Source: an uncultured Ruminococcus sp. (GTDB taxonomy: Bacteria; Bacillota; Clostridia; Monoglobales; Monoglobaceae). From it: a stretch of 64,000 nt of DNA. The stretch's first letter is position 1. The number at the start of each line of letters is the position of its first letter. The stretch lies in NCBI GenBank assembly GCA_902766745.1, contig CACXES010000041.1, forward strand, positions 1 to 64,000, read 5' to 3'. Positions 37,101 through 53,459 of the stretch are shown here, one piece after another. Below the pieces are notes generated by a model. That model was not told the DNA's origin. It saw nothing but the letters and a program-made list of their open reading frames with translations, and made no database searches. The position numbers were made by a program, and so were the translations under genes.

Positions 37101-37132
37101 GTTTACATAATATTATTATGTAAACCTAATTC
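37094..37132. terminator. 39-bp perfect palindrome holding both convergent stop codons
   Basis: A perfect 18-bp inverted repeat around ATT, with GGTTTACATAA/TTATGTAAACC inside. The stop codons of the recombinase (37098) and the YlmC-like gene (37126) lie symmetrically in its arms. It should act as a bidirectional terminator; the TTATGTAAA arms also resemble a Xer binding half-site. Confidence 0.75.
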
Positions 37133-37368
37133 TCTTTTGTCTCAATAATTACCAAATCATCACCTATTTTCTTTATATCCTCCCATTTGATCGTTCGTTC
37201 AGGTTCGCGGCCAAGCAAGCCCATTGCCCGATACGCCCCGGGAACACATAACGAAATAATCCTGCCGCTCTCGGAATCTATTTCCATATCCGAGATAAAG
37301 CCTATTCTTTCGCCCTCGGCAATGTGTATTACTTCCTTGGATTTCAGATCGCTGAATTTATAAATCAT
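37126..37368 (-). CDS. YlmC/YmxH-family PRC-barrel-like protein
   Basis: An 80-residue PRC-barrel-like protein (MIYKFSDLKSKEVI, IGFISDMEID, then IKWEDIKKIGDDLVII) matching the YlmC/YmxH family linked with sporulation or cell division in Firmicutes. I prefer ATG 37368 with GAGGTG eight bases before it over the GTG nine bases upstream. The biochemical role is unknown. It is convergent with the recombinase. Confidence 0.85.
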   Translation of the reverse strand: MIYKFSDLKSKEVIHIAEGERIGFISDMEIDSESGRIISLCVPGAYRAMGLLGREPERTIKWEDIKKIGDDLVIIETKEN

Positions 37369-37395
37369 ATAACGCACCTCGCATAAGTGTAATAG

Positions 37396-37431
37396 AAAAA
37401 TATCTCATAGTAATGCCTATGAGATATTTTT
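37396..37431. terminator. Terminator hairpin
   Basis: A perfect 15-bp stem, AAAAATATCTCATAG/CTATGAGATATTTTT, with a six-base loop. It lies after the minus-strand gene at 37499. Confidence 0.85.
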
Positions 37432-37498
37432 GATTAATATTCGTATATAAAATAACTTTTTGAATACGTTAGCGCTCGGGTTATATACCTTCGCACAG

Positions 37499-37855
37499 CT
37501 ACAAGCAGCAGTGATGTTTTAGCAGCTCCTTTTCTTTATTAACAAAAGCAGTGTATTCGTTAACGGTCATACAAGTTGCAAATCCGAATTGTGAGGCAAG
37601 AAGCTTTACAGCACAATCCTCTTCCTCTCTGTCGCAGCAGCTTATAATAATTGTATCGGTCAAGTCCTCCTTTAATGCGGCACAGCGCAAAAACGCCTCA
37701 GCATCTCCTGTATCCTTACCGACAAACACGATCCTATGTACGCTTATTTCGGATGTTTCCTTAGGCTCCGACGCCCTTTCAATACAATCATATAATATAG
37801 AAAAGACACCGTAAATTGTAAAAAAACAAATAATTACGCTAATTACCGCTTCCAT
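37499..37855 (-). CDS. Unknown protein with one membrane helix
   Basis: A 118-residue protein. The first 22 residues form a membrane helix, then comes a soluble domain with alternating strands (HRIVFVGKD, TIIISCCDRE) and a Cys-rich tail HHCCL. AGGGGTG precedes the ATG. I recognise no family. The position between a YlmC-like gene and an HD protein gives no clear hint. The alternating strand pattern would suit a small Rossmann-like domain. Confidence 0.7.
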   Translation of the reverse strand: MEAVISVIICFFTIYGVFSILYDCIERASEPKETSEISVHRIVFVGKDTGDAEAFLRCAALKEDLTDTIIISCCDREEEDCAVKLLASQFGFATCMTVNEYTAFVNKEKELLKHHCCL

Positions 37856-37905
37856 AAAATCACCCCTTTGTATTATTATATGCCGGGTGAGATTTATGTG
37901 CTTAT

Positions 37906-39087
37906 CTAAATTGCAAAATAATCGAATATCAAACCGAATTCAATGCCGCAAATGCAGGAATTCTCGTATTTTTTTCTAAGCTCACGGTTTCCTATCTGAA
38001 GTGCGTGAGTGGTAATCCCGTATATATGAGAAAAATATGTTTCAATACACGCCGCCAAATGGTCACATGCTCTAATTAACTCACCGTCAACCGGAAAATA
38101 CTCGGCAGTGTTGTATCTTTCGTCAATCTCATTACTTGTAACAATTATTGGCTGTCCGTCTATAATTACCTTGTTGCTGAATTCGTCGTTGGTGAAATAG
38201 GAAATCTCGCTCTGCCATGCCTCAGGTATCAGCGGATATAAGATATGCTCCATCTGATCCTGCTCTATGCCCTTAATTATCTCGTCAAGACCTTCAATCG
38301 AGTTTTTCACGGGCGACACAATATCCCTTGTAAGCACCTCGGGAATATCGTGGAACAGGCCGCCTAAAAAGTTGTTGGTGATTCTTTCGGGAGAGGCATT
38401 GGTGTGGCACGAAAACACATAGGATAAAACCGCAACAATCAGCATATGACCGATTACCGATGTTTCGGGGATTCTGGGCGAACGTGACCAACGCTGCTGA
38501 AATCTTAACTCGCCGAGCAGGTTTGTAAACCCCCTGAAATTGTCATTGGCAATAAACGTATCGAAGCATTTAAGCCCCTTAAAGGAATTTAGCTTGTTGT
38601 CAATCTCTGCTCTTGTGCCGTCAATACCGTAATAACTTCGACACATATCAAAGATAATGTCAAATTCCCACTTTGTCGCCAGGTAGTGAGCCGCCTCAAG
38701 AATTTCTTTTTCATGCTTTGCATATGTTTCGTCCATAAAATAACGTTCCATCTTTTGATAAAAATCATGCGGAATATTAATGACATCATTTTTGATTGTT
38801 TCAAGAGCCCAGTGGTTAAGCTCCTCGCCCTTTACCTTCATAAGACGGTGGAAAACGGGCGGCTTTATGTCTGTAAGCACAAGCCTGTGAAAGAACTCAA
38901 ATATTCCGCCTTCGACTAACCGGTTCATGTCAACATTTCCGTCAATTTTCGAGAGTACATATGCATAAATCATCTTGTGCGACTGCTTGTCAAGCTCCGT
39001 AAACCCTCGTGACGGACGGATATGGTCGTTCCAACGCTCGATGGACGCCGCTTCAAATATAAACTCAATCAAAGACTTTTTTATCAT
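37906..39087 (-). CDS. HD-domain metal-dependent phosphohydrolase
   Basis: A 393-residue HD-superfamily protein. Key residues include a first His in SVIGHMLIV near 216 and the HD pair in LFHDIPEVLTRD near 250, which resembles the YfbR-like 5'-nucleotidase/HD_3 group. The N-terminal half is helical and has no recognised motif. The start at 39087 has GGAGTG before it; the frame extends 21 bases further without one. It is likely a cytoplasmic nucleotide or phosphate-ester hydrolase; the substrate is unknown. Confidence 0.85.
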   Translation of the reverse strand: MIKKSLIEFIFEAASIERWNDHIRPSRGFTELDKQSHKMIYAYVLSKIDGNVDMNRLVEGGIFEFFHRLVLTDIKPPVFHRLMKVKGEELNHWALETIKNDVINIPHDFYQKMERYFMDETYAKHEKEILEAAHYLATKWEFDIIFDMCRSYYGIDGTRAEIDNKLNSFKGLKCFDTFIANDNFRGFTNLLGELRFQQRWSRSPRIPETSVIGHMLIVAVLSYVFSCHTNASPERITNNFLGGLFHDIPEVLTRDIVSPVKNSIEGLDEIIKGIEQDQMEHILYPLIPEAWQSEISYFTNDEFSNKVIIDGQPIIVTSNEIDERYNTAEYFPVDGELIRACDHLAACIETYFSHIYGITTHALQIGNRELRKKYENSCICGIEFGLIFDYFAI

Positions 39088-39126
39088 ATAAATCACTCCG
39101 ATCAACAAATTTTATTTTAAGCTTGA

Positions 39127-40290
39127 TTACTTTAAGTATATAGGATAGCTCTTAATATTAATTGTATCATCTATAGACGAACGTGGAATTTCATAGATAC
39201 TGCCGCGCCCACTGTTTGTAACCGAGAAACCGCTTTTGTAATAACGCCTTGCACGGCTTAAAACCTTATCGTTAAAAAATCCGTACGGATACGCTATTGA
39301 TGTAACCTCTCTCTTGGTAATGTTATATATTTTGTCATTTGACAATGAAAACTGCTCGTCAAGCTCGATTTCGGAAAGCTGTCGCAAATCCGAATGCTCC
39401 GTCGAATGTGAGTAAATTCTGAAGACCCCACTGTCGCTCATTTCGAAGAGCTGTGCATCGCTGCAGTAATCATCTTCGCCTATTTTATCCGAAACCATGA
39501 AAAGCGTAGCCTTTGCGTTATACTTTTTTAAAATCTGATATGCAGTGCTGTATGTTTGTACATATCCATCATCAAATGTCAAAACAACACACTTTTTAAG
39601 CTCATCAGCCATCGAAAGCTCCTCAGGAAACAAAAACGTATACCCGTTATCATACAAATACTTTATTTGCTGTTCAAAGTTCTCCGGGCTGACATACACA
39701 TAGGAATACGGCCCGGACGGCTGATCTATAACGTGGTACATAAGCACCGGAAGCCGCCTTTGATTTCGGCGTCCGTTTTTTGATCTCTTACCAAAGTCCT
39801 GAGCGTGTACGGCGAGCTTTACATAATATGATGCCATTCCCTCGGATATGACGGCTCTCGGATGAAGATAGCCGGAGTTGTTCCAAATATCAATCGCCGA
39901 CAGAAAAGCAATCTGACTTTGATATTCGGGCGCAACCTCGTTTTGATCGTAGTGCCATTTTATTTTTTGATTGTCATAAAATAAGTCCGGTGCCGAAATA
40001 TCCAGCGCACGTTTGAGCATAATTAAAAATTCCTGTGTGGTGATTGTTTTATCCGGTACAAATGTATTTCCGTATTCGGCACCCAAAACCTTCATACTGC
40101 GGTAATACGCCGCCGTTTTATCGTCCGTATCATCAAATTTCGGCGCATCCCTCCATGCCGGTAAAACTCGGCTCAGCATATGAACGGCACCTAACTTCGT
40201 AAGTGCGGAATTTTCATCAGCAAACACATTAACCGCCGTAAAATTTAAAACAATGACAATCGTTAGTATATAATAAATTATACGATGCAA
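39127..40290 (-). CDS. Secreted polysaccharide deacetylase with SLH-like N-terminus
   Basis: A signal peptide (ending VFA) is followed by about 150 residues with SLH-like alternation (FVPDKTITTQEFLIMLKRAL) and a NodB deacetylase domain. Motifs are LTFDDGY (catalytic Asp and metal Asp), SHSTEH (two metal His) and AYPYG. It should remove acetyl groups from a cell-wall or surface polysaccharide, anchored by its N-terminal region. The SLH call is weak because only parts of the signature are visible. Confidence 0.85.
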   Translation of the reverse strand: MHRIIYYILTIVIVLNFTAVNVFADENSALTKLGAVHMLSRVLPAWRDAPKFDDTDDKTAAYYRSMKVLGAEYGNTFVPDKTITTQEFLIMLKRALDISAPDLFYDNQKIKWHYDQNEVAPEYQSQIAFLSAIDIWNNSGYLHPRAVISEGMASYYVKLAVHAQDFGKRSKNGRRNQRRLPVLMYHVIDQPSGPYSYVYVSPENFEQQIKYLYDNGYTFLFPEELSMADELKKCVVLTFDDGYVQTYSTAYQILKKYNAKATLFMVSDKIGEDDYCSDAQLFEMSDSGVFRIYSHSTEHSDLRQLSEIELDEQFSLSNDKIYNITKREVTSIAYPYGFFNDKVLSRARRYYKSGFSVTNSGRGSIYEIPRSSIDDTINIKSYPIYLK

Positions 40291-40402
40291 GTATATCAGT
40301 CCAATTCATGTAAATCTATTTTCATACGAATTATATAATAACACAAAAAAATATCATTTTCAAGTATTATTACAAAATTAATGGAATTTTAAGCCAAAGT
40401 AT

Positions 40403-40431
40403 TTGACCAAAGTAAACTCGTATGCTATAAT
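40403..40431 (+). promoter_or_regulatory. Promoter of the uridine-kinase-like gene
   Basis: TTGACC, 17 bases, TATAAT, 24 bases before the ATG. Confidence 0.8.
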
Positions 40432-40455
40432 GTATTTTATAGGAATGGTGATAAT

Positions 40456-41040
40456 ATGGTTAGAATTTCCGAGAATGCGGAGATAATATTAAACAAAATA
40501 AATTCCGCAAAGAAGCATAATAATAGAATAATTATTGCAATAGACGGCGAGTGTGCCTCGGGGAAAACAACGCTTGCTGCGGAAATTTCGCAGTTTCTTT
40601 CTTGCAGCGTGGTTCACATGGACGATTTTTTTCTGCGTCCGGAAATGCGAACTCCGGAGCGTGAAGCTGAGCCGGGCGGCAATGTTGATTATGAGCGAGT
40701 ATTAAAAGAGGTACTTCTTCCTCTTTCGCAAAATACGGCGGCGGAATTTCGGCCTTATGAATGTAAAAATATGCGAATGGGAGAGAAAAAAGAAATCCTT
40801 CCTGCAGACGTAAATATTATTGAGGGAGCATATAGCTGTCACCCGGCATTGCGGAGCTTCTATGATTTGAGAATATTTGTTTGTGCCGAAAAGAAAATTC
40901 GCCTTGAACGAATAAAAAGCCGCAATGGTGCCGAAGCTTTGAAAATCTTTGAAAATAAATGGATTACCATGGAAGAAATGTATTTTAACGCCTTTGACAT
41001 AAAGAATCGCTGTGATTTGATTATTGATAATTCAAAGTAG
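40456..41040 (+). CDS. Uridine-kinase-like P-loop protein
   Basis: A 194-residue P-loop kinase. Walker A is IDGECASGKTTLA near residue 29, followed by HMDDFFLRPEMRT, as in uridine kinase and related small-molecule kinases, and a later NIIEGAYSCH. It would phosphorylate a nucleoside or similar substrate using ATP. The typical Udk lid differs, so substrate is open. AGGAATGG precedes the start. Confidence 0.85.
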   Translation: MVRISENAEIILNKINSAKKHNNRIIIAIDGECASGKTTLAAEISQFLSCSVVHMDDFFLRPEMRTPEREAEPGGNVDYERVLKEVLLPLSQNTAAEFRPYECKNMRMGEKKEILPADVNIIEGAYSCHPALRSFYDLRIFVCAEKKIRLERIKSRNGAEALKIFENKWITMEEMYFNAFDIKNRCDLIIDNSK

Positions 41041-41072
41041 TTTTTCTGTGGAGATCTGAGTTCGTGCGATTG

Positions 41073-41160
41073 AAAATCGAAAGAATTTTATTTAATATCG
41101 CCCAATGCCCTGTTCCGACCTGCCGTTCCCGGTCGGCAATGTAAAAATTATTTCGATTTT
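41073..41160. mobile_element. Short diverged relative of the MITE-like repeat
   Basis: Ends AAAATCGAAAGAATTTT and AAAATTATTTCGATTTT resemble the 17-base terminal repeats of the larger element. The inside keeps GCCCAATGCCCTG and GGCAATGTAAA. It lies 33 bases after the kinase stop and 105 bases from the full copy. Confidence 0.55.
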
Positions 41161-41264
41161 GAAGCGTTCCGCTTCACCGACTCCGTTGTTATTCGTTGTT
41201 ATTATGGAGAAAAAATTCACGTTTATCCCGTGGCAGAAATACTTATGTATACCACAGCATTTGT

Positions 41265-41453
41265 AAATCCGAAATAATTTTTACTTTGCAGTTGGCATTA
41301 GGGTTCCCAAAAAGCGGAGGGTTGTACCCGACGTTTTTTGGGAAGAGGAGACACGGCGGAGCAAGCGACAATGCGAACAAATGAGCATTAAGCAAGCGCA
41401 GCAAGTGTCGACGAGGGCATAGGGCAATTATTCAAAAAAATTATTTCGGATTT
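41265..41453 (+). mobile_element. MITE-like repeat, copy 1
   Basis: About 189 bp bounded by inverted AAATCCGAAATAATTTT and AATTATTTCGGATTT ends. It is inverted relative to the copy at 49961 and closely similar across the whole length. No transposase is encoded. An internal CCCAAAAA/TTTTTTGGG pair can form a hairpin. Confidence 0.85.
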
Positions 41454-41485
41454 TTAGGCAATCATCATACTGTACATAGAATAAA

Positions 41486-41509
41486 CCCCCGCATAATGAA
41501 ATACGGGGG
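41486..41509 (-). terminator. Terminator of the SLH protein gene
   Basis: CCCCCG/CGGGGG stem with a 12-base loop, followed on the minus strand by TTTATTC. Confidence 0.7.
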
Positions 41510-41522
41510 ATATATTTATATT

Positions 41523-43196
41523 TTATTTTGCGGAATGTAATCTGTAGATGATTGTTGCCACTTCCGCACGGGTTGCATTCGCAATGGGTGCGAAATTATT
41601 ATATTCGTCGCCCTGCATATATCCCGCCTTACGCACGGAATATACATAAGCATGCGCCCAGTCGGAAATCTGTGCATCATCGGCAAATGTATCTTCTGCC
41701 TGCTCGGAAAGCTCAAATGCACGTGCGAGAATGGTCGCAATCTCCTGTCTTGTAATGTTATTATCCGGCGAGAAGCTTGCTTCATCAGTGCCGTTCACTA
41801 TACCGGCATCAACAAGTGCACCGATATAAGACTTTGCCCAATGCTGATTTGCATCGGCGAACTTCTCCGCCGCACCGGGGTTATCCGCAAGCTTTAAAAA
41901 TCTTGACATAACCGTTGCAAATTCCGCACGAGTGATGTTATTCTGCGGTCCGAAGGTACCGTCCTCATAGCCGTTCATCAATGCGTGGTCATAGACATAT
42001 TCGATATTTGTCTTTGCCCAATGCTCCGCTATATCAGACGGATATGTAACGGCAGGCTTTTCCGGCTTTTCGGGTGTCTGAACCGGCTCGTCCGGCTTTG
42101 TAACGGTGGTCGGCTTATCGCTAAGGCTTATACTGCTTCCGCTGCCTCCTCCGCTTCCGCCGCTCGAACTTCCGCCGCTCGAACTTCCTCCTCCGCCGGT
42201 GCTTCCATTGCCGCCGTCAGACGGTTTTTCCGGTTCTTCCGGCTCAGGCTCGGGCTCGGGTTCGGGTTCGGGATCTTTAGGCTGTGTCGGATCCGGGTCG
42301 GGATCCGGAATTACAACAGGTGCATCCTTTTCAAGGATTTCAAAATTACAGCTGTTTGAAGTAATTCCATAAGTTAGCATTAATTTATACATTCCGGGAA
42401 TATAAATATCCTCTGAAAGTTCAAAGTCAACACTGTATCGTCCCGTTGATAATATTGCATCCTTTTCCTCGATTAGCTGCTCTCCGCTGTATATAGAAGC
42501 TTTCAGCGGCTCGTCACTGTTTGGATCTATTATACTTTTTCCGCTTATACGAAGAGTTGAATTTTGTTTTTTACTTCCTACACCTGTAAATTCAAATGGG
42601 GGAGTGATTTTTAAATCAAGCTTTTCAGCAGATATATCAAGAACGGCATCTCTGTTATTTACATTAATCTCCGGATTTGTAATTTCGAGGGAGGTGTATA
42701 TCGAACCGGTAATTTCATACTCCGGCCGTACTCTGAATGCAAACTGCGCAATAGGACCGGGAGTATAGATATCTCCGGTTTCTGCACGACTTGTATATAG
42801 AAGTATAAGTGTATTTCCGCTATCTGCCATTCTTACAGAGAATGAATTTTCATCTCCGATATCTCCGTATATATAATATTTACCTTCAACCGGCAAACCG
42901 TTTTCATCAACCTCTATCGGCTGCATTGTGTTAGGATCAAGAAGTTCAAGATAGTCCGGATCAAATTTCAATCCATGCCTGTACACCAAAATACCGTTTG
43001 CATCCGCAAAGGTGTCATCAAAATTCAACATGGTGTTTACCCGGAAGCTATCGCCCGACATAAGCTGTGCTGACTTAATCTGAAAACCGATGTTTATCGG
43101 AAGCTCGCCCTCGGCATTAACGCTTATCATACCCAAGGCTGAGATTGTCATAAATACGGCAAGCATTAATGATAAAACTTTAATTTTTGTTTTCAT
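41523..43196 (-). CDS. Cell-surface protein with cohesin-like and three SLH domains
   Basis: A signal peptide (ending VNA) is followed by a cohesin-like beta domain (about residues 28-190), an Ig-like part, a long linker of Pro/Glu/Asp and Gly/Ser repeats, and three C-terminal SLH domains (about 375-557). SLH signatures are HWAKTNIEYVYDHALMNG, HWAKSYIGALVDAGIVNG and DWAHAYVYSVRKAGYMQG, each with a TRAE/TRQE-type motif. SLH domains bind pyruvylated cell-wall polymer, so this protein can fix the others to the wall. The start at 43196 has GGGAGATGG before it. It carries no enzyme. Confidence 0.88.
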   Translation of the reverse strand: MKTKIKVLSLMLAVFMTISALGMISVNAEGELPINIGFQIKSAQLMSGDSFRVNTMLNFDDTFADANGILVYRHGLKFDPDYLELLDPNTMQPIEVDENGLPVEGKYYIYGDIGDENSFSVRMADSGNTLILLYTSRAETGDIYTPGPIAQFAFRVRPEYEITGSIYTSLEITNPEINVNNRDAVLDISAEKLDLKITPPFEFTGVGSKKQNSTLRISGKSIIDPNSDEPLKASIYSGEQLIEEKDAILSTGRYSVDFELSEDIYIPGMYKLMLTYGITSNSCNFEILEKDAPVVIPDPDPDPTQPKDPEPEPEPEPEPEEPEKPSDGGNGSTGGGGSSSGGSSSGGSGGGSGSSISLSDKPTTVTKPDEPVQTPEKPEKPAVTYPSDIAEHWAKTNIEYVYDHALMNGYEDGTFGPQNNITRAEFATVMSRFLKLADNPGAAEKFADANQHWAKSYIGALVDAGIVNGTDEASFSPDNNITRQEIATILARAFELSEQAEDTFADDAQISDWAHAYVYSVRKAGYMQGDEYNNFAPIANATRAEVATIIYRLHSAK

Positions 43197-43274
43197 ACGT
43201 CCATCTCCCATAAAAGATTTGTTTACTGTAATCTATTATACTATGGTTTTAAGCATATTTCAAGTTATTTTTTA

Positions 43275-43306
43275 AAAAAGGTGCGGCACATTTGCCGCAC
43301 CTTTTT
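43275..43306. terminator. Terminator hairpin
   Basis: Perfect 14-bp stem AAAAAGGTGCGGCA/TGCCGCACCTTTTT with a CATT loop, downstream of the minus-strand gene at 43365 and before the SLH gene. Confidence 0.9.
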
Positions 43307-43364
43307 AATCTTAAATTGTTCACCTATAAGATTATATAATTATTACTACTGAATTTCAGTCGTC

Positions 43365-46085
43365 TTATTTATTTAATACATCAAAGGTGTATGTTCCGGG
43401 CTTCTCGCCTGCTCTGATGGATCTGATAAGTTCAGCTACATCATTAGAATCAAGACCGAGGTTACCGTTTACATCACCGGAGAAGAGACCGCCGGTGAAA
43501 TTGTTAGCAGTCGTCGGAAGTACAGGAGTTTCGCTTGCACCTACAACCTGTCTTACCATTGAGTAGTCAATGATGTTGAAGCGCTTATCATTGTTCGGTG
43601 ACGGCATATTTGTCTCTTCTACGATAGAGAACTTATATGTAGCAGACGCCTTATCTGTTGTATCGGTATTATGAGCGGTTGTGATTGTCAGCTCATATGT
43701 ACCAATATCTGTGATAGCGGTACCTGCTGTATAAGCAGCAGCCGTTGCAGCATCCTTAGACAATGTCATAGTATTTGTATAACCAGAAGGTGCTTCATCA
43801 GCAGTTATTGCAACATATCTGAATGAACCATTAGAACCACTGTATGTAGCCAATTCGGTAGCATTGGATGTCTTGAAGCCTGCGGCAGCAGTTGCTCCGT
43901 TGTACAGTGCAACCTTGATTCCGCTTGCAGCATCAATCTTATTGAACGTTGCGTCAACGCTTGCAGCAGCCTTATGACCTGCAGCATCAGCAACTACCAT
44001 GTAGTATCTGCCTGCAACTTTTGTATTGTAGGTTGCTTTTCCTTCAGCTACAGTTGCAGCTCCTTTATTTTCAAGTTTCTCAATTTCAGAAACAGTAGTT
44101 AAAGCCTCTCCTGTAGTAGAAGCACTGTAGTATACCGTAACAGACAGCGTACCGCCTGTTACACCGGAACCTGTATCTGCAACAGATGCAGTGATATCCT
44201 TAGAACCGTCTGTCTTAACTTCACCTACAGTCATACCTGTAATTGTAGGATCATCAGCATCAAGCTTAAGATCTACGCCTGTACTCTCTGCAGTGTTTCC
44301 GGCTTTATCTGTTACTCTGAATTTAACAACACCGCTGAAGTTCTGAGCAGGGATTGTTACGCTTGTTGCATCAACCTCTGAAATTGCAGTGTATTCTGTT
44401 CCGTTTAATGTGTATTCAAGCTTATTAACTCCGCTGAGTGCATCGGATTTTGTAAGTGCGGATATAACAAGTACATAATCAGCCTTAGCATCCTGAATAC
44501 CGCTTACGGTAATATTGCTGTCGCTGACTGTAGGAGCAGTACCATCATACCAAGCACTTGCTCCGGGAACAAGAGTTCCTACATGCTGATATACAAGATT
44601 ATCGCCTGTACCAATAGCAGCAACTATAACATATTTTTCCTCACTGTTAACTGTAACAGTATCACTGTCAATTGCAGATGTATTTTCATACATAGCCTCT
44701 AAATCAGCCTGTGTACCAACAGCAGGTGTGGCATCCTTAGAAACCTTAACATACTTTACATTTGCAGCATCTACAGGTGTAACAACTACATTATATTGTG
44801 AATTTTTCCAAGCTGGTGTTATGATATCTGCGGGAAGTGTAGCAAAGGTTTCCGGAACGATAACTATAGTTTTTGTTCCGACAGAAATACCAATCGGATC
44901 CTTTGTCGGATCTATAGCCTGCTTAACAAGTGCAAGCTTAGCATTATCGATCACTATTTCAGATGCTCCGTAAGCCGCATCACTCTTTACAGTAAAGTTA
45001 AGCGTTGCAACAGTTGCATCGGTTGCAAGACCGGATGAATTTGCTTTGTCTCCGTATACAACAGTACCATCAGTGTATGAAACATTAGCGCCGAGCGAAT
45101 TTGTATCGAGTTCAAGCTTTGCAGGATCATAAGTAAGGGTGAAGCTTACCATAGCAGCCTGCGCAGAAGCAAGACCGGAAATCTTAACCGGTACTGAAAC
45201 AGTTGCACCAGCCTTATAGCCTGTTTCTGCCGGTGTTAATTCAAGTGCCAGCTGCGCTGAAATAGTATCGGTAGAAAGAGTAAATGTCTTTGTTTCAGCA
45301 TTTTTACCCTTAACCTTTACAGCTACAGTATATGCACCGGCTGCTGTAATCGAGTATGTATAAGAAGAACCTGCAGTTGATGTTGAAGACTCAATTACTG
45401 TTGCCGGGTCAGTAGATGTGTTTGTAACTGTTACCGTTTCAATATTTGTACCTGTAACAGCAAGTGTAAATCCATCTGCATCATAATAGGTCATACCATC
45501 ATTAAGAGCTACGTTATCTACTGTTACAGCGTATGTATTATCTACAACTTTAATTGTATAACCAGCATCTACAAGATTATCGTCAGCTTTTGTGTACCAG
45601 TCAATAGCAGAACTATTTTCAACAGTAAAGCTTGAATCATCAGCAATACAAGATGATGCATAAACTTTTGCGGCCGCAGTATCATTTACCGTGAAGTTAA
45701 GTGTAGCAAGAGTAGGAGTAGTCTCAGCACTATTCGTAAGATTTGCGCCGCCTGCACCTATCAAGCTTACATAAGATGTAGAACCATCAGTGAGCTTTTT
45801 GAGTCTGATGCTTTCTTCGTTTGTTACAGTGAAAACAGACGCATCATAGCTAAGGTTTACAACATAGTCATAAACAGCTAAAGTTTCAACACTTGAAACA
45901 GCCTTTACATCAACAGTGAAAGTGTCACCGGGATGTACTTCTGTTGCACTGGGTGAATACGCCATAGTAATTGTACCCGATGCTTTATCAAGCAGGTCGA
46001 TGGATGCGGCGAATCCTGAAATCGGCAACGCCATGGTTGCGATGATTAGTGCCAGTGAAAGCACTAAACTTAGAACTTTTTTCAT
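43365..46085 (-). CDS. Secreted scaffold with two cohesin-like domains and a C-terminal dockerin
   Basis: A 906-residue secreted protein (signal peptide ending GFA). The first cohesin-like domain lies at about residues 30-200 (SPSATEVHPGDTFTVDV, LNFTVND), the second at about 285-415 (YKAGATVSVPVKISG, LTYDPAKLEL, LNFTVKS). Several Ig-like segments follow, and a dockerin-type tail at 835-906 has NDKRFNIIDYSMVRQVVG and GDVNGNLGLDSNDVAELI, i.e. one degenerate and one good calcium loop. There is no catalytic domain. Cohesin-dockerin pairs assemble multiprotein complexes; who binds whom here is unknown. Confidence 0.82.
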   Translation of the reverse strand: MKKVLSLVLSLALIIATMALPISGFAASIDLLDKASGTITMAYSPSATEVHPGDTFTVDVKAVSSVETLAVYDYVVNLSYDASVFTVTNEESIRLKKLTDGSTSYVSLIGAGGANLTNSAETTPTLATLNFTVNDTAAAKVYASSCIADDSSFTVENSSAIDWYTKADDNLVDAGYTIKVVDNTYAVTVDNVALNDGMTYYDADGFTLAVTGTNIETVTVTNTSTDPATVIESSTSTAGSSYTYSITAAGAYTVAVKVKGKNAETKTFTLSTDTISAQLALELTPAETGYKAGATVSVPVKISGLASAQAAMVSFTLTYDPAKLELDTNSLGANVSYTDGTVVYGDKANSSGLATDATVATLNFTVKSDAAYGASEIVIDNAKLALVKQAIDPTKDPIGISVGTKTIVIVPETFATLPADIITPAWKNSQYNVVVTPVDAANVKYVKVSKDATPAVGTQADLEAMYENTSAIDSDTVTVNSEEKYVIVAAIGTGDNLVYQHVGTLVPGASAWYDGTAPTVSDSNITVSGIQDAKADYVLVISALTKSDALSGVNKLEYTLNGTEYTAISEVDATSVTIPAQNFSGVVKFRVTDKAGNTAESTGVDLKLDADDPTITGMTVGEVKTDGSKDITASVADTGSGVTGGTLSVTVYYSASTTGEALTTVSEIEKLENKGAATVAEGKATYNTKVAGRYYMVVADAAGHKAAASVDATFNKIDAASGIKVALYNGATAAAGFKTSNATELATYSGSNGSFRYVAITADEAPSGYTNTMTLSKDAATAAAYTAGTAITDIGTYELTITTAHNTDTTDKASATYKFSIVEETNMPSPNNDKRFNIIDYSMVRQVVGASETPVLPTTANNFTGGLFSGDVNGNLGLDSNDVAELIRSIRAGEKPGTYTFDVLNK

Positions 46086-46222
46086 GATTGGAAAATCCCC
46101 CTTGTATAAATATTATATTTTATTGTATGTCACAAACGGCTATATATCTTATGTAATCGAATGGGACACCTAAGGTACATAACCTTATAATGTACAAATT
46201 TAATAATCAATAAATTTTTATA

Positions 46223-46254
46223 TCGGGCTTAAAGCTATCCGGCGATAAGCCCGA
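46223..46254 (-). terminator. Candidate terminator after the EF-hand/Ig protein gene
   Basis: TCGGGCTTA/TAAGCCCGA, 9-bp stem and 14-base loop, 18 bases beyond the stop at 46273; the T-run is poor. Confidence 0.55.
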
Positions 46255-46272
46255 ATTTGAATTTTAAATTAA

Positions 46273-47625
46273 TTATTCAGCTGAGCTCGGATTAGCCTTG
46301 TCAATCCATGTTTGTCTGGAGTTTACCATGTTATCAGCTCCAAATCCTTCTGCTCCTTCAAACATAAGCTTAAGCATACGATACTCTGACAGTGTAACGT
46401 CACCGTTTAAGTCATAGTCGACAGCGGAATTGATTGCCGCATCCGGAGTACGTCTGTCAAGTGCATAGTTAAGAGCTTCTGCCTTGATACCGGTCATCTG
46501 TGTCTCAGTAAGAGCTGCATTAGACAAAGCGGTTGATGAAGCAAATGCATCCGCACCGTTCGAGTCTGAAATCAAGTCGAGGTTACCAAAGGAAATATTT
46601 ACATTCGGATCAGCTACAAGATATATATCCTTTGTATCCTTAACCTGACCGTTCTTACCTACGGAAGCGCTTACTGTAACCTTTGCCGCAAATACACCGG
46701 ATTTAAGAGCAATAGTGTTGTCTGTTAATGTAACTTTTTCCTTATTCGGATCCCCGTCCGGGATTGAATATGCTACATCATAATCGCCTGCTTTAGCAGG
46801 TAATTCAGCGGATGTTCCGCCCTGTACCACTTCATCTAAGCCATTACCAAGTGCAGTTTCAACATTGCCAACATCACCCACAGGAATTTCAACAACTGCA
46901 GAATTTACAACAACCGTCACTGCCTTATCGTTATATCCGGCTGCTGAAATAACAAGTTCATGGCTTTTAACTTCGGTTAATCCTGTTATTGTAAGCGTTG
47001 TTCCGGAATAGCTTACCGCTGATGAATCTAACGCAGTAGAACCTTCTTTAACAACAACGTTAGTCATACCTTCCGGTACAGTAAATACTGCCGATTCACC
47101 TGACTTTATTGTTACTGATTCAGGATAAACAGTCATGTCTTCTTTAGGAGTCTCAACTGTGTAATTAAATTCAGCAGTAGTTGCAACATCAGTTCCGCCT
47201 GCCTTAGCTATAAAGGAACCAACTCCTTGTGTTCCTATTGACATTCTCGGTCTAAATGTGATTGTAGCTGTACCATCGGTTGTTGATACTGTCTGCTGAT
47301 CAACATACTGGATAGTGCTGTTATTAAGTGTAACACTTTCTCCGTCAATGTTTGAGAGGAAAGTTACATCGCCCGCAGCTACAGCAGGGTTCTCTGCTTC
47401 ACCGTTAGTTAACTTAACAGTAACCTGGAGCATTTGCTCTGTGTTAAGTTTAACGTTTCCAATTACTCCCGTTTCTGCATTTTTAAACGAGGTTCCGCTG
47501 TCATCTGCACTGTTCAAAACCTTAACATCAACAATCTCCACTCCGTTTGCCCAACCTGTTACCATTGAGCAGGACATTGCCAATGCGGCCGCCCCTGCCA
47601 ATAGCTTCTTACCACGTTTTTTCAT
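46273..47625 (-). CDS. Secreted Ig-like protein with a dockerin/EF-hand-like segment
   Basis: A 450-residue exported protein (signal peptide, first ~26 residues). It has several beta-rich Ig-like segments, one resembling bacterial Big domains, and a C-terminal stretch DYDLNGDVTLSEYRMLKLM that fits a dockerin-type calcium loop, preceded by a second weak helix-loop (LDRRTPDAAINSAV). The tail is therefore a probable dockerin. It may dock on a cohesin-like domain of a neighbour. No enzyme domain is seen. Confidence 0.75.
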   Translation of the reverse strand: MKKRGKKLLAGAAALAMSCSMVTGWANGVEIVDVKVLNSADDSGTSFKNAETGVIGNVKLNTEQMLQVTVKLTNGEAENPAVAAGDVTFLSNIDGESVTLNNSTIQYVDQQTVSTTDGTATITFRPRMSIGTQGVGSFIAKAGGTDVATTAEFNYTVETPKEDMTVYPESVTIKSGESAVFTVPEGMTNVVVKEGSTALDSSAVSYSGTTLTITGLTEVKSHELVISAAGYNDKAVTVVVNSAVVEIPVGDVGNVETALGNGLDEVVQGGTSAELPAKAGDYDVAYSIPDGDPNKEKVTLTDNTIALKSGVFAAKVTVSASVGKNGQVKDTKDIYLVADPNVNISFGNLDLISDSNGADAFASSTALSNAALTETQMTGIKAEALNYALDRRTPDAAINSAVDYDLNGDVTLSEYRMLKLMFEGAEGFGADNMVNSRQTWIDKANPSSAE

Positions 47626-47702
47626 TTTTCTAACACCCCATTTGTGATAAAATGATTTATTTAAATTTTAATTTTTTTCAAAATCAATTGCACTCCGAAA
47701 AC

Positions 47703-48689
47703 CTAAGGTATATAAACGGTAACGGAATTTCCTTCGTAGGAAATCTTTGAACCGTTATATATAGCAGACACAAGCGATACCGGGATGAAGATTCTGTCAT
47801 TAACGTCTGCCGGTTTTATGTTGGAGGAACATTTTGCAGAGTTGATATAAACACAGTTGTCATTCATATTTATTTTTAATGTGCGATAATCGGCATAAGC
47901 CGCAGCAACTAATGTGTTGCCGTCCCATTCAACTTTCATTCCTGTATTCTCGGTTAAGTAGCGAACGGGAATCATCATCTCGCCGTCCTGTTTAAAAGGA
48001 GCAACGTCAATTTCTTGTGTAAAGTCATTTGCCTTTACAGTGCTTTCACCTTCTGTAAAGGTGATATACTTGTCAACACTGTTCGGAACCAAAAGAGGAG
48101 CTATATTATAGCCGCCGACATTAACGTCTATACCTTCAACGTTATACGCTCTGCCTACGCTATAGTCATCGAGCGAATATGTAATAACACCGAGCGAATT
48201 TTCGACAAATCGAATCGGATACGTATCAAAGGAGTTCCAAAGTGATTTGGGGTCCTTTGATACAAGGGTAAAAGAGAACAGTGTTCCATCGTTATCTATC
48301 AGATTATCCATAAGTGTGGAATCCATAAAAGTGATGGTGACATTTTCGCTTTCGGAATCAATTTTTGATTCGATATCATTTATGGATTTAACCATTGCAC
48401 CCTCATTGAGAGAAACATCTACTCCGTTATCATTAGTTTTTATGTCAAATTTTTCGCGATTAAAATTAAAGGCAAATGTAACGGCACATATAGAGCCAAG
48501 ATGTTTTGCAAGAGCAACATTTATATTTCTGATGTTGGCATCAACCGTTATCTCGCCTGTGATATCGTTCATTACATGGGGAGAGAAGTACAGCTGAAGC
48601 TTTGGTTCGACGCCTATTACGGTGATGGCTGATAAAGCTATTGCCGCACCGACAACCACTGATGCTATTTTCTTGAATAATCTGTTCAT
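47703..48689 (-). CDS. Secreted protein with cohesin-like and copper-amine-oxidase-N-like domains
   Basis: A 328-residue exported protein. After the signal peptide comes a cohesin-like domain (about 30-190, with AVTFAFNFNREKFDI). The C-terminal 100 residues resemble the Cu_amine_oxidN1 domain of many Firmicutes surface proteins (MIPVRYLTENTGMKVEW, RIFIPVSLVSAIYNG), thought to bind wall polymer or stabilise folding. It has no catalytic oxidase domain. The module pair joins a possible complex-forming domain to a wall-binding one. Confidence 0.78.
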   Translation of the reverse strand: MNRLFKKIASVVVGAAIALSAITVIGVEPKLQLYFSPHVMNDITGEITVDANIRNINVALAKHLGSICAVTFAFNFNREKFDIKTNDNGVDVSLNEGAMVKSINDIESKIDSESENVTITFMDSTLMDNLIDNDGTLFSFTLVSKDPKSLWNSFDTYPIRFVENSLGVITYSLDDYSVGRAYNVEGIDVNVGGYNIAPLLVPNSVDKYITFTEGESTVKANDFTQEIDVAPFKQDGEMMIPVRYLTENTGMKVEWDGNTLVAAAYADYRTLKINMNDNCVYINSAKCSSNIKPADVNDRIFIPVSLVSAIYNGSKISYEGNSVTVYIP

Positions 48690-48821
48690 CTAACGCCATA
48701 CCTTCCATTCGTAAATATTTTATATTTGCTTTATATCAGTCTTATCTCTTGCGAGATGATGCCTATCCATACATTGATTATTGATTTGCAAACATTCCCA
48801 AAATACTGATCCAAAATAAAT

Positions 48822-49691
48822 TTAGTTTCCTGTTGTAACTTCTGCGGACACATTTTCTGCAATTGCTTTCATGCTGAAAAATGATTTCCACAGATAATAA
48901 TCAATCTTTAAATTTGAGCTATTTGTTATACCCTCGAACGATACATTGATTGTATTTGAGGAATCTATCGTTTGAATCTTAGATTTCTTAACAAGACCGG
49001 ATGTTTTATCCCGGAGAACAGCGAACAGAACACCGGATTCGGATTCGGGAAGTCTGACATTGACCGAGCCGCTGACTGTATTATTATCAAATACGGCGGT
49101 AGGAGCTTCGATTACTCCGTCCACAATTTTTGCGGTGGCTTTTTCGCCCGCAGTACAATTAAGGCTTTCACCTTTATCAGCGGTTCCGAAAGGCTTGGTA
49201 ACAACATTTGTATATGCAATATCAAAGCTTGTTTCGATTGTGTCGCCCTTTGATGCCTTTACTTTAAATGAAGCCGTTCCTATTATCAGATTTCCGTTTG
49301 CATCAACGTCAGATAGAGCAACACCATCGGGACAGTTAAAAAATGCAACGATTACATTATTAAATTTCTCAGTAACCTGAAATCCTTTTTCGGTATTTGC
49401 AGATGTAAGCTTTTCGGACAAGCTATCGTTATAACCGCCACTGATATATTCGAGCTTACTGTTATCAAAATTCAAGTGAGTTTCAAAAGCACCGAGTTTT
49501 ATTCCGTCCGTCTTCTCGTCGTTAAGTCCCGTAAGGGTGATTGTCGCTGATGCGGTTTCACCGGTAACATACGATGATTTATTAAACGTCACCTCGATAC
49601 CGACATTGTTATCCGCAGCATATGTATACGGAATAAAGAGCATAATCGTCATCAAAATTATGCACACTGACACAGCAAGTTTTGCCTTCAT
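48822..49691 (-). CDS. Secreted cohesin-like protein
   Basis: A 289-residue exported protein (signal peptide ending TYAA). Residues about 28-190 have the nine-strand cohesin outline: VTGETASATITLTGL, then LNFDNSKLEYISGGYN and a later GTASFKVKASKGD. The C-terminal part (about 200-285) is a small beta domain without match. It is the first of the five surface genes in transcription order. No anchor is visible, so it must be released or held by another protein. Confidence 0.75.
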   Translation of the reverse strand: MKAKLAVSVCIILMTIMLFIPYTYAADNNVGIEVTFNKSSYVTGETASATITLTGLNDEKTDGIKLGAFETHLNFDNSKLEYISGGYNDSLSEKLTSANTEKGFQVTEKFNNVIVAFFNCPDGVALSDVDANGNLIIGTASFKVKASKGDTIETSFDIAYTNVVTKPFGTADKGESLNCTAGEKATAKIVDGVIEAPTAVFDNNTVSGSVNVRLPESESGVLFAVLRDKTSGLVKKSKIQTIDSSNTINVSFEGITNSSNLKIDYYLWKSFFSMKAIAENVSAEVTTGN

Positions 49692-49887
49692 TTTCCATCC
49701 CCCTGTACTCTAATGAATTACCAATATGCCCAAACAAACGGACACAATTTAACACTCTTATACATATAATTATATCAAACTTTTAATATTTCGCAAGTGG
49801 ATTAATAAACAGAATTATTGATTATTTTTTGTACATAATTACCAAACGTATGCTTATATCAAGTTTATAATAGCTTTTAATCGACAA

Positions 49888-49926
49888 AAAAGACAAATAT
49901 CGATGTTTTTGCCGATATCTGTCTTT
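49888..49926 (-). terminator. Terminator of the gene at 50199
   Basis: AAAAGACAAATATCG and CGATATCTGTCTTT form a stem with one mismatch; on the minus strand TTTTTTG follows. It now lies 273 bases from the gene because MITE copy 2 sits between. Confidence 0.7.
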
Positions 49927-49960
49927 AATTTTAAATCAGGAATTTGTATATGAAATTACA

Positions 49961-50150
49961 AAATCCGAAATAATTTTATTGAATAATTGCCCTGCGCCCT
50001 CGTCGACACTCGCTGCGCTTGCTTGATGCTCATTTATTCGCATCGTCGCTTGCTCCGCCGTGTCTCCTCTTCCCAAAAAACGTCGGGTACAACCCTCCGC
50101 TTTTCGGGAACCCTAATGCCCAACTGCTATGTAAAAATTATTTCGGATTT
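49961..50150 (-). mobile_element. MITE-like repeat, copy 2
   Basis: The 190-bp inverted counterpart of copy 1 with the same 17-base ends. It lies just after the stop of the gene at 50199 and before its probable terminator. It encodes no transposase. Confidence 0.85.
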
Positions 50151-50198
50151 TTGCAGAAGAATATGTGCGATTTTAATTCAGCCGAGATATGTTATGAT

Positions 50199-50810
50199 TT
50201 AGTTAAGAATAGCTTTTGTGGCGTTTTCTGCGTTCTGCATTTTCAGCTTTGACTCCGGCTTGTCCTTAATGCTGTCCGGCAATTTGACCATGCACCAATA
50301 TGTAGGCTCGTCAGCTTCAGACATTCCGAGAAGCTCGGCGCATTTCGGATTTTCGCGGATATCGAAGGACTGAATAAACATTTCTTCATCATTTTTCATA
50401 TACAAATCATACATTTCTTCGTTCAGGATATAGATTGCATACTGACCTGCGGCAAGCTCGGCGGTGAACTTCATATTTCCGTAGCCTGCGGCACCCATTT
50501 CGCTCAGTGAACCGGTACGAATTAATTTAACCGTTTTTTCCCCGTCTCCGTCCATATCATCGACATAGTCCTTAAGATAATCTTCAAGCGCAGCCGCCTG
50601 CTCCTCGCTTACCATCCTTGTGCCGTAAAATTCTATTTCAAGGTCATATTCCTCGGTGGTAATAATTTGATATACCGTAACGCCGATAAGTCCCAGAACC
50701 ACCAATGTAACGATTGTGTGGATTTTATAATAGTTCCAAAAATGAGCAAATTTTTCCTTGATGGTCATGTTCTTTACCATTTCTTTTGCTTCGCGAGCCT
50801 GCTTGTCCAT
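50199..50810 (-). CDS. Unknown membrane-anchored protein
   Basis: A 203-residue protein with a basic amphipathic N-terminus, one membrane helix near 33-52 (TIVTLVVLGLIGVTVYQII), and an extracytoplasmic domain rich in Glu/Asp. I see no catalytic motif or known family. The first 30 residues face the cytoplasm by the positive-inside rule. Its 3' end is only 48 bases from MITE copy 2. Function is unassigned. Confidence 0.75.
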   Translation of the reverse strand: MDKQAREAKEMVKNMTIKEKFAHFWNYYKIHTIVTLVVLGLIGVTVYQIITTEEYDLEIEFYGTRMVSEEQAAALEDYLKDYVDDMDGDGEKTVKLIRTGSLSEMGAAGYGNMKFTAELAAGQYAIYILNEEMYDLYMKNDEEMFIQSFDIRENPKCAELLGMSEADEPTYWCMVKLPDSIKDKPESKLKMQNAENATKAILN

Positions 50811-51000
50811 ATGTCATGCCGCCTTTCGTTATTTACACCGATTTTAAACAATTTATACTATTCTATCACATATAAAACAAATAATCAAGCTTATTTTTAT
50901 GTGTAAAAATGAACATTTTATTAACAATGCTATGTAAACACTTGATTCACAATATAGGTAATTGGAAAAATTCAAATTCGAAATTTGATGATTACATTAT

Positions 51001-51040
51001 AAATCCGAAATAATTTTATTGAATAGTTGCCCTGCGCTCT
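51001..51040 (-). mobile_element. MITE-like repeat, truncated copy 3
   Basis: Forty bases match the end of copy 2, from AAATCCGAAATAATTTT to GCCCTGCGCTC, then the similarity stops. It is in the same orientation as copy 2. Confidence 0.8.
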
Positions 51041-51086
51041 CTCGATTTTATGATTAGTTAACTTATGAAAAAAATGCATTTAAAAA

Positions 51087-51109
51087 CCCCCGAAGATATG
51101 CCTCGGGGG
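51087..51109 (-). terminator. Terminator of the amino acid ABC operon
   Basis: CCCCCGA/TCGGGGG stem with a nine-base loop, followed on the minus strand by TTTTTA. Confidence 0.85.
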
Positions 51110-51134
51110 GTAGGATATACCACTTGAAAGAGAA

Positions 51135-51953
51135 TTACTCTTCTGCGGTAACTGCGTATTGAGCAGCCAATTCATTTACAGTGCCATCTGCAAGCATCTT
51201 TTCAATAGCGCTGTTGATCTTGTCGAGCAGCTCGGTATTACCCTTAGCCACCGCAATTGCATATTCCTCTTTTTCAAAAGCCTCAGAATCTTCAACAACC
51301 TTGAGGTTTTCGTTATCATTTACATATTTCTGTGCCGTTGCCTTATCTATTACAACCACGTCTGCCTTGCCGTTTACAAGCTCCATAATTGCATCTGTGC
51401 CCTTCTTGAAGGACTGATAGCTATAACCCATACCCTGTACGGATATTTCGCCCGTATATCCCTGAATAACAGCTATATTCTTATCAGCCATATCTGTTGC
51501 CTTTGCGATGTCGGAATCGGATTTAACAATCATAACCTGCGTTGCTGTATAATACGGAGTAGAGAAGTCAACTGTTTCCTTTCTCTCGTCCGTAACGGTC
51601 ATACCGGCGATTACTGCATCGATCTGGCCGTTCTGCAGAGCAACAAGCAATGAATCAAATTCCATATTGTTAATCTCTGCGGTTTTTCCGCAGTCTTCTG
51701 CGATCTGCTTTGCTATTGCCATGTCGATACCGTCAAACTCGCCTATAACTCCGCCCTTTGCGGAAATAAACTCGAACGGAGGGAATTCTGCGTTTGTACC
51801 GAATACTATTGCGTCACTTTTTTCGGTTTTCGGAGCCTCCGCCGCGGGGGCGTCGGTCTTTGCCTCATCCTTCTTTGCACCGCAGCCTGCAAGTGCAGCA
51901 ATCGTCAGTGCTGCCGCAGCCGCAACAGCGATACCTTTTAGTAATTTTTTCAT
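51135..51953 (-). CDS. Amino acid ABC transporter substrate-binding lipoprotein
   Basis: A 272-residue periplasmic-type binding protein (SBP family 3). The signal peptide ends in lipobox LAGC, so it is lipid-anchored outside. The ligand region starts at FPPFEFISAKGGVIGEFDG, and the core includes DAVIAGMTVTDER. It should bind a polar amino acid. I use the ATG at 51953 since AGGAG lies eight bases before it; the ATG six bases upstream is too close. It follows its permease and ATPase genes in one operon. Confidence 0.94.
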   Translation of the reverse strand: MKKLLKGIAVAAAAALTIAALAGCGAKKDEAKTDAPAAEAPKTEKSDAIVFGTNAEFPPFEFISAKGGVIGEFDGIDMAIAKQIAEDCGKTAEINNMEFDSLLVALQNGQIDAVIAGMTVTDERKETVDFSTPYYTATQVMIVKSDSDIAKATDMADKNIAVIQGYTGEISVQGMGYSYQSFKKGTDAIMELVNGKADVVVIDKATAQKYVNDNENLKVVEDSEAFEKEEYAIAVAKGNTELLDKINSAIEKMLADGTVNELAAQYAVTAEE

Positions 51954-52020
51954 TTTCATTTCTCCTTTTGAAATAGATTTTATTTTATTACCAATGGGAA
52001 TTTCCCAGTGTAATCTTAAA

Positions 52021-52743
52021 TTAAAGCATTTTACTTAAAAAGCTCTTTGTTCGATCGTTTTGCGGATTATCGAAAATTTCGGCAGGGGTGCCTTTTTCGA
52101 TAATATATCCGCCGTCCATAAAGAGTACCCGTGTGCTGACCTCTTTTGCAAAACCCATCTCATGAGTCACAATTACCATTGTCATTCCGCTCATGGCAAG
52201 CTCCTTTATTACGTCCAAAACCTCGCCGACCATTTCCGGGTCAAGTGCCGAGGTCGGTTCGTCGAAAAGCATGATTTCCGGCTCCATGGCAAGCGCTCTG
52301 GCGATGGCTACTCTCTGCTTCTGTCCGCCGGAGAGCTGTGCGGGGTATGATGAGGCTTTTTCTTCAAGGCCAACCTTTTTGAGAAGCTCTGTCGCTCCTT
52401 TTTCTGCCTGCTCCTTATTCATCTTTTTCAAGACGACAGGGGCAAGCGTAACGTTTTTAAGGATAGTAAGGTGCGGAAAAAGATTAAAGTGCTGAAACAC
52501 CATACCTGTTTTCTGTCTTATTTTATTAACATTAACGCCCTTGCCGTTAATCATCTCACCGTCAATATATATTTCGCCTTCGGTGGGATTTTCGAGTAGG
52601 TTCAGGCATCTTAAAAATGTACTTTTTCCGGAACCGGACGGGCCTATAACCGATACGACCTCACCCTGTGAAATATGCTCGTCTATACCGCGAAGAACCG
52701 CCAGGTCTCCGAAGCTTTTATGAAGATTATTAATCTGAATCAC
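52021..52743 (-). CDS. Amino acid ABC transporter ATPase
   Basis: A 240-residue GlnQ/HisP-type ATPase. Walker [10 protein letters not shown] near residue 34, the signature LSGGQKQR, Walker B IMLFDEPT and a switch His in VTHEM are all present. It drives import by the permease at 52755 and the binding protein at 51135. The spacing of 11 bases to the permease gene indicates one operon. Confidence 0.95.
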
Positions 52744-52754
52744 GGTTCTTCCTC

Positions 52755-53459
52755 CTATCTTACATCAGATTTCCTGAGAGATTTTTCAATCACACCCAAG
52801 AGGAGTGTCAGGAATTTTATGATTACAAAATATATAACTGCCGTACCGATAAGCGGAACAAAGGCGATAAACGTAGCACTTTTGATAAAGTCACCGGCCT
52901 TTTGTATATCCATAAGTCCAACGTAGCCCACTATTGCCGTTTCTTTTATCAGCACAATAAACTCGTTGCAAAGTGCGGGAAAAATGTTCTTCACCGCCTG
53001 AGGAATAACGATACGCGACATTGTTTGGAACCCGGACAGGCCGAGTGAGCGGCCGGCCTCCGTCTGTCCCTTATCAATGGACAAAATGCCGGCTCTGATT
53101 ATTTCGGAAACATAGGCACCGGAATTAATTCCGAAGGCTATGGCTGCAATTATCCACTTTTCCCATGAAACTGTGGCGAATACAACAAAGTATATGATCA
53201 TAAGCTGCGTTACCGACGGTGTGCCTCGGATAACATCTGTATACACCTTACCTATAAGTCTGATGCCCTTTCGCTTTGAAAGACTGCAGAATGCAATTGC
53301 TATACCGATAATAATTCCGATAATAACGGCGAGAAGGGACACCTTAATAGTTACGCCAATACCGTTCAGCAAAAGCATATAACGGTCATCTTTTATAAAG
53401 CATTTGTATAAATCCGCAGCAAGCTCGGACCACCATTGTGACAGCCAACCCATATACAT
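52755..53459 (-). CDS. Amino acid ABC transporter permease
   Basis: A 234-residue HisM/GlnP-type permease with about five membrane helices and the EAA loop ([20 protein letters not shown]) that contacts the ATPase. It is first in the three-gene unit. An AGGATGG ribosome binding site precedes the ATG. Substrate class is polar amino acids by family; the exact ligand is unknown. Confidence 0.93.

Follow-up and report, generated by a model that had tools for sequence, protein, structure and literature searches.

The window considered here, a 64,000-nucleotide stretch of a contig from an uncultured Ruminococcus sp., contains on its minus strand, between positions 41523 and 49691, five neighbouring genes that all encode exported proteins and among which there is no digestive enzyme. 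It is fairly probable that this locus encodes a small, non-catalytic, wall-attached assembly held by cohesin-dockerin contacts, and it is best read as one lineage's version of a mostly non-catalytic system, spread across the family, by which surface proteins are attached to the wall through cohesin-dockerin pairs encoded locally. Few known protein-protein fasteners are as strong as the cohesin-dockerin interaction, which has mostly been studied in cellulose digestion; in related bacteria, cohesins and dockerins appear to be used as general snap-fasteners for surface proteins.

The original observation of five consecutive exported proteins was borne out, as all five open reading frames are present and each carries a signal peptide, judged typical by reading the sequence. 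In the order of transcription, they are P5 (49691-48822, 289 aa), P4 (48689-47703, 328 aa), P3 (47625-46273, 450 aa), P2 (46085-43365, 906 aa) and P1 (43211-41523, 562 aa), the true start of the latter likely being the ATG at 43196, which is preceded by a GGAG motif; the features of these genes described below all lie on the minus strand. The genes form a cluster and not clearly one operon. Indeed, the gap between P2 and P1 contains a strong terminator hairpin (approximately 43280-43306; a perfect stem with a T-run, -22.3 kcal/mol, z -7.4), followed by a near-consensus promoter-like site upstream of P1 (TTGAAA-17-TATAAT, 43235-43263, matching at 11 of 12 positions), and because of this terminator co-expression is not assured. 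Another terminator hairpin lies downstream of P1 (41486-41509), and an Rfam search of positions 37000 to 53000 returned no RNA.

Cohesin-like domains had been noted in four of the proteins, and the evidence for them proved uneven, being strong in P2, provided by a family profile in P5, borderline in P4 and drawn from HHalign and a fold search in P1. P2 is made of two cohesins, an Ig-like middle region and a C-terminal dockerin, that is, it has the several cohesins plus dockerin of a polyvalent adaptor, and its two Pfam cohesins reach the number (at least two in one protein) expected in a cellulosome. The cohesin pair scored 71.4 bits in Pfam, with cohesin 1 at 45600-45950 (PF00963, 33.9 bits) and cohesin 2 at 44937-45224 (PF00963, 62.1 bits), the second of which also matched the PDB entries 5nrk and 5nrm (E 1e-6). 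The dockerin (43416-43595), which had been described as a good one, is present but weak: it straddles the PF00404 cut-off of 22.9 bits (19.3 bits in the protein scan, 23.0 bits in the genome search), but reaches 33 bits when a dockerin profile of the family is used, and its second calcium loop is canonical (DVNGNLGLDSND) whereas the first is degenerate (SPNNDKRFNIID). A genome-wide scan recovered two weak relatives of P2, in RUG467 and in Eubacterium callanderi, both of which sit in other cohesin/dockerin clusters where the scanned proteins were without CAZyme domains.

P1 has the layout of a wall-anchor protein, with a cohesin-like N-terminus, a beta domain, a Pro/Gly linker and the three SLH domains that had been noted (123 bits in Pfam; 41556-42038, with PF00395 at 41916-42038, 41736-41864 and 41556-41687). 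Neither Pfam nor the family cohesin profile gave an HMM match in its N-terminal domain, and a PDB sequence search with P1 returned nothing credible. A putative cohesin-like domain at residues 32-205 (42597-43118) was pointed to by HHalign (82%, reversed control 0.6%), which compared a profile of P1 and its one orthologue with one of the family cohesins. A low-confidence model of this N-terminus (pLDDT 52), whose underlying alignment contained true cohesins, had cohesin or cohesin-like structures as all of its top 21 PDB fold matches. The cohesin fold was in this way found for P1 by structure prediction with modest confidence, which supports a cohesin-like domain, short of proof. P1 would then join a cohesin to SLH domains, as SLH-anchoring scaffoldins do, with the cohesin part coming from HHalign and the fold search only.

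In P4, a borderline cohesin match (48264-48506; PF00963, 25.2 bits in the genome search, within a range of 23.4-25.2 bits around the cut-off of 24.1; HHalign 88%) is joined to the expected copper-amine-oxidase-N-like domain (Cu_amine_oxidN1, residues 224-327, 47709-48020; PF07833, 71 bits), the combination found in Cu-amine-oxidase-type anchoring scaffoldins. The cohesins of P1 and P4 are thus putative assignments at low sequence similarity. P5, a single-cohesin protein, gave no Pfam cohesin match and nothing credible in a PDB sequence search; its cohesin was recognised at residues 38-107 (49371-49580; 33.4 bits, E 2.5e-8) by a profile grown from the cohesins of related genomes, with which reversed decoys were silent. 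As for P3, the tail that had been likened to a dockerin or an EF-hand does contain one canonical EF-hand loop near the C-terminus (DYDLNGDVTLSE, residues 403-414, 46384-46419), but no second loop and no dockerin profile match were found, so that the two calcium loops of a dockerin are not both present. The model of this tail (pLDDT 43) was left unused; Pfam detected no convincing domain in P3, and a PDB sequence search with it gave nothing credible.

The cohesins and dockerins of the same genome were then surveyed by profile searches in an assembly of 2.85 Mb and 166 contigs, 93% complete. Dockerin loops are clearly present elsewhere, with seven Pfam loci including P2, plus B2, while SLH matches number at least 150 and cohesin matches occur at the study locus, at position 89453 of contig C41 and, below the cut-off, on contig C154. 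Locus B, about 35 kb away on the same contig, consists of cohesin-SLH3, dockerin and SLH2 genes; locus C, of a cohesin-SLH3 protein, a 1,799-aa subtilase with a dockerin and a third exported protein; and locus D, of a dockerin protein and an SLH3 protein. A dockerin, fn3 and SLH3 are combined in protein E, and contig ends (C152, C162 and C64) hold F, G and H, three dockerin proteins that are almost identical to one another. The N-termini of D2 (of this genome), E and F were unrecognised by the cohesin profile and were excluded from the cohesin counts. As had been proposed, the genome was searched for dockerin proteins with CAZyme domains: the proteins were found, domain scans of this 93% complete assembly detected no CAZyme domain in any of them, and the only enzyme domain was that of the one subtilase. 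The idea that the dockerin partners of the study locus are coded elsewhere therefore stands in that other dockerin loci exist, but the partners of each locus seem to be encoded within it, several of the dockerin proteins adjoining their own SLH proteins.

A broader picture was obtained from 38 genomes of the family, representing nine genera. Cohesins were found in 30 of them and dockerins in 32, at 1-10 per genome, and for 51 of the 95 cohesins a dockerin is encoded no more than 5 kb away, in every case on the same strand, compared with about 1.3 expected by random placement; in 31 of these 51 cases, the two modules belong to separate open reading frames. Most of these genomes contain similarly small, mostly enzyme-free cohesin-dockerin gene groups. 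One such group is a core operon of the locus B type, with a cohesin-SLH3 gene, a dockerin gene and an SLH2 gene encoding about 1,050 aa, often overlapping, which is unfused in six genomes of four genera (G000, G037, G002, G003, G018 and G019). In a fifth genus, g4, one fused gene of about 800 aa stands in place of the first two, beside the third, in all 12 genomes examined. Cohesin, SLH3 and dockerin were detected by profile in 10 of these 12 fusions; the exceptions are that of G015, without a detectable cohesin though its N-terminus aligns with B3, and that of G008, cut by the contig start. Such a fusion is classical evidence of two partners working together, and its confinement to one genus suggests that it probably arose in one event. 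The fusion evidence belongs to locus B and not to the study locus, which counts against the explanation preferred here for the latter. Single proteins bearing both a cohesin and a dockerin also occur in five further family genomes.

Adhesin-type or cell-wall domains predominate in the family's dockerin-bearing proteins. In a Pfam scan of 53 dockerin-region proteins, the prevailing domains are Ig-like, BspA leucine-rich, fn3 and SLH, and the enzyme-type domains, among the matches listed, amount to GH25 in three proteins and subtilase, M23, M60 and pectinesterase once each. The specificity of type I dockerins lies at loop positions 10-11. The dockerins of different loci differ at these positions, which is consistent with private cohesin-dockerin pairs. 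It might be proposed, as a tentative generalization that we regard as possible and somewhat doubtful, that this Clostridia family uses several mutually private cohesin-dockerin pairs, arranged as groups of anchor and partner genes, to mount mostly non-enzymatic proteins on an SLH wall layer, one pair being an ancestral core operon whose partners became fused in one genus.

As for the study locus itself, full-length orthologues of P4 are present in two congeners (41 and 39%), where they directly adjoin the same membrane-protein gene (50199-50810 in the window) with no P5 between, whereas P2 has no orthologue among the 38 family genomes, P3 has no homologue in the other 37, and the N-terminus of P1 has a single family orthologue (39%), located at a contig end in the congener G037. 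On these grounds, P4 looks older and the remaining genes look lineage-specific. Conservation of the five-gene locus is unsupported, given the lack of family orthologues of P2 and P3 and the absence of P5 beside the congener P4.

We infer binding, partner choice and surface function in the P1-P5 assembly along the following lines. P1 would be fixed to a wall polymer by its three SLH domains and would offer its cohesin-like domain, and the Cu-amine-oxidase-N-like domain of P4 might make it a second anchor. P2 would dock by its C-terminal dockerin onto P1, P4 or P5, and its two cohesins would face outwards for dockerin-type surface proteins, the candidate cargo being P3, with its reduced EF-hand tail, and the orphan dockerin proteins F, G and H. 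In the family layout, each locus would carry its own anchor and dockerin partner, the study locus being a lineage-specific copy. It could be argued that the cohesin-like domains are, instead, generic beta-sandwich adhesion or spacer domains, in related surface proteins without mutual dockerin binding. The cohesins of P1, P4 and P5 are indeed divergent, P3 is without a dockerin and that of P2 is degenerate in one loop, and the congeners keep P4 alone, without the other genes. However, the co-localisation of cohesins and dockerins far above chance and their fusion in one genus would be unexpected unless both work together, and this explanation is considered rather unlikely. There is, in addition, a slim chance that P2 molecules are chained head to tail, the dockerin of P2 entering the cohesins of P2, into a fibre or matrix on the surface that P1 and P4 would cap at the wall. 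The presence of cohesins and a dockerin in P2, as in single proteins of five other family genomes and in the fused g4 protein, would suit such a polymer, but adaptor scaffoldins of known cellulosomes also carry both modules and have been proposed to switch between types (PMC11557425).

The relationship with cellulosomes deserves particular attention, as the scaffoldin classes described in PMC11557425 include SLH-anchoring, Cu-amine-oxidase "nonSLH-anchoring" and polyvalent adaptor proteins. The locus resembles an Acetivibrio-type scaffoldin set in joining a putative cohesin to SLH domains (P1), a cohesin to a Cu-amine-oxidase-N-like domain (P4) and cohesins to a dockerin (P2), along with a single cohesin (P5). 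In contrast to that set, no CBM3, no many-cohesin primary scaffoldin and no dockerin-bearing glycoside hydrolase were found in the locus or the 93% complete genome. CBM3 was absent from all 38 family genomes, its control being positive in B. subtilis; a GH48 search matched neither any of the 38 nor any control genome. With its dockerin proteins found without CAZyme domains and CBM3 absent family-wide, the locus is not a cellulosome. A minimal or decaying one, of which the scaffold part is seen here and the genes for the dockerin enzymes lie at other sites in the genome, would account for the match of P1, P2 and P4 to the three scaffoldin types (PMC11557425), but the same two observations render it improbable, even considering that a 93% complete assembly could miss a few proteins. 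Of the two possibilities initially contemplated, a minimal wall-bound scaffold and a non-catalytic surface complex, both are compatible with the data, with a preference for the latter.

That cohesins and dockerins also exist apart from cellulosomes has been reported before, in PMC9012536, which cites Peer et al. 2009 and describes ANME archaea. The present modules resemble those cases in occurring in organisms or proteins that are not specialised for cellulose, and differ in forming adjacent-gene pairs with SLH wall anchors, which recur across a single family of bacteria and have become fused in one of its genera. Similarly, the "scaffoldin-containing" Paenibacillus guangzhouensis and Lachnoclostridium sp. 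MSJ-17 (PMC11557425) lack a conventional cellulosome, their proteins bearing few cohesins each and including SLH anchors or adaptors. However, glycoside hydrolases are frequent in the adaptors of P. guangzhouensis, and dockerin proteins number as many as 39 in MSJ-17 (PMC11557425), whereas the dockerins described here are few, largely local and mostly enzyme-free. A recent survey of 305,693 genomes demanded a multi-cohesin protein together with a dockerin-bearing enzyme (PMC11557425), so genomes with few, locally paired and mostly enzyme-free cohesins and dockerins would be passed over. Neither the family-wide layout of wall-anchored cohesin-dockerin gene pairs nor their fusion was found in the literature searched. 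A family with few, locally paired and mostly enzyme-free modules would reveal other uses of the fastener and supply natural pairs, possibly of different specificity, for engineering, and the g4 fusion offers a testable case of one polypeptide replacing two docking partners.

Finally, the whole five-gene set lies between two inverted copies of a MITE-like element of about 190 bp, at 41265-41455 on the plus strand and at 49960-50150 on the minus strand, complementary over 161 nt (95%) and 31 nt (94%). Their value as a special mark of the locus was weakened, because they are two among dozens of copies of a family dispersed in the genus; the inverted pair could have helped the locus to assemble, or be incidental.

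Genes P1-P5, which code for the five exported cohesin/dockerin/SLH proteins, are bracketed by two copies of a MITE-like element of about 190 bp (window 41265-41455 and 49960-50150), which are inverted relative to each other, are 94% alike and have AAATCCGAAATAATTTT as terminal repeats; a partial copy lies at 50998-51041. The 8.5-kb segment between the inverted copies could in principle undergo inversion. The element is common to the genus, and the source organism's own genome carries dozens of copies, both long and short. Further copies adjoin cohesin/dockerin loci C (L019:2289-2375 and L019:8727-8813), D (L020:7613-7788) and F (L017:2662-2700) of this genome.

At locus C, the cohesin-SLH3 gene is directly followed by that of an exported subtilase of 1,799 aa (L019:2464-7860), which carries a TIG domain and a C-terminal dockerin and is possibly a wall-docked protease. 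Near the five genes, an exported polysaccharide deacetylase is encoded at window 39127-40290; its N-terminal part resembles degenerate SLH repeats, and the SLH profile gave no match to it. The genome as a whole yielded at least 150 matches to SLH domains, often in pairs of adjacent ORFs, one about 550 and the other about 880 codons long, as on contigs C165, C59, C63 and C149.

Outside the family of related genomes, cohesin/dockerin genes occur in succession in RUG467 (L023) and Eubacterium callanderi (L024); the domains of their products are of lectin, Ig-like or Listeria-Bacteroides repeat type, and the proteins scanned in these two regions had no reported CAZyme domain. Within the family, the cohesin-SLH3 and dockerin genes of the locus B operon are fused, in genus g4, into a single ORF of about 800 aa (L084, L102-L110, L118 and L119), adjoined by a conserved SLH2 protein of about 1,040 aa.
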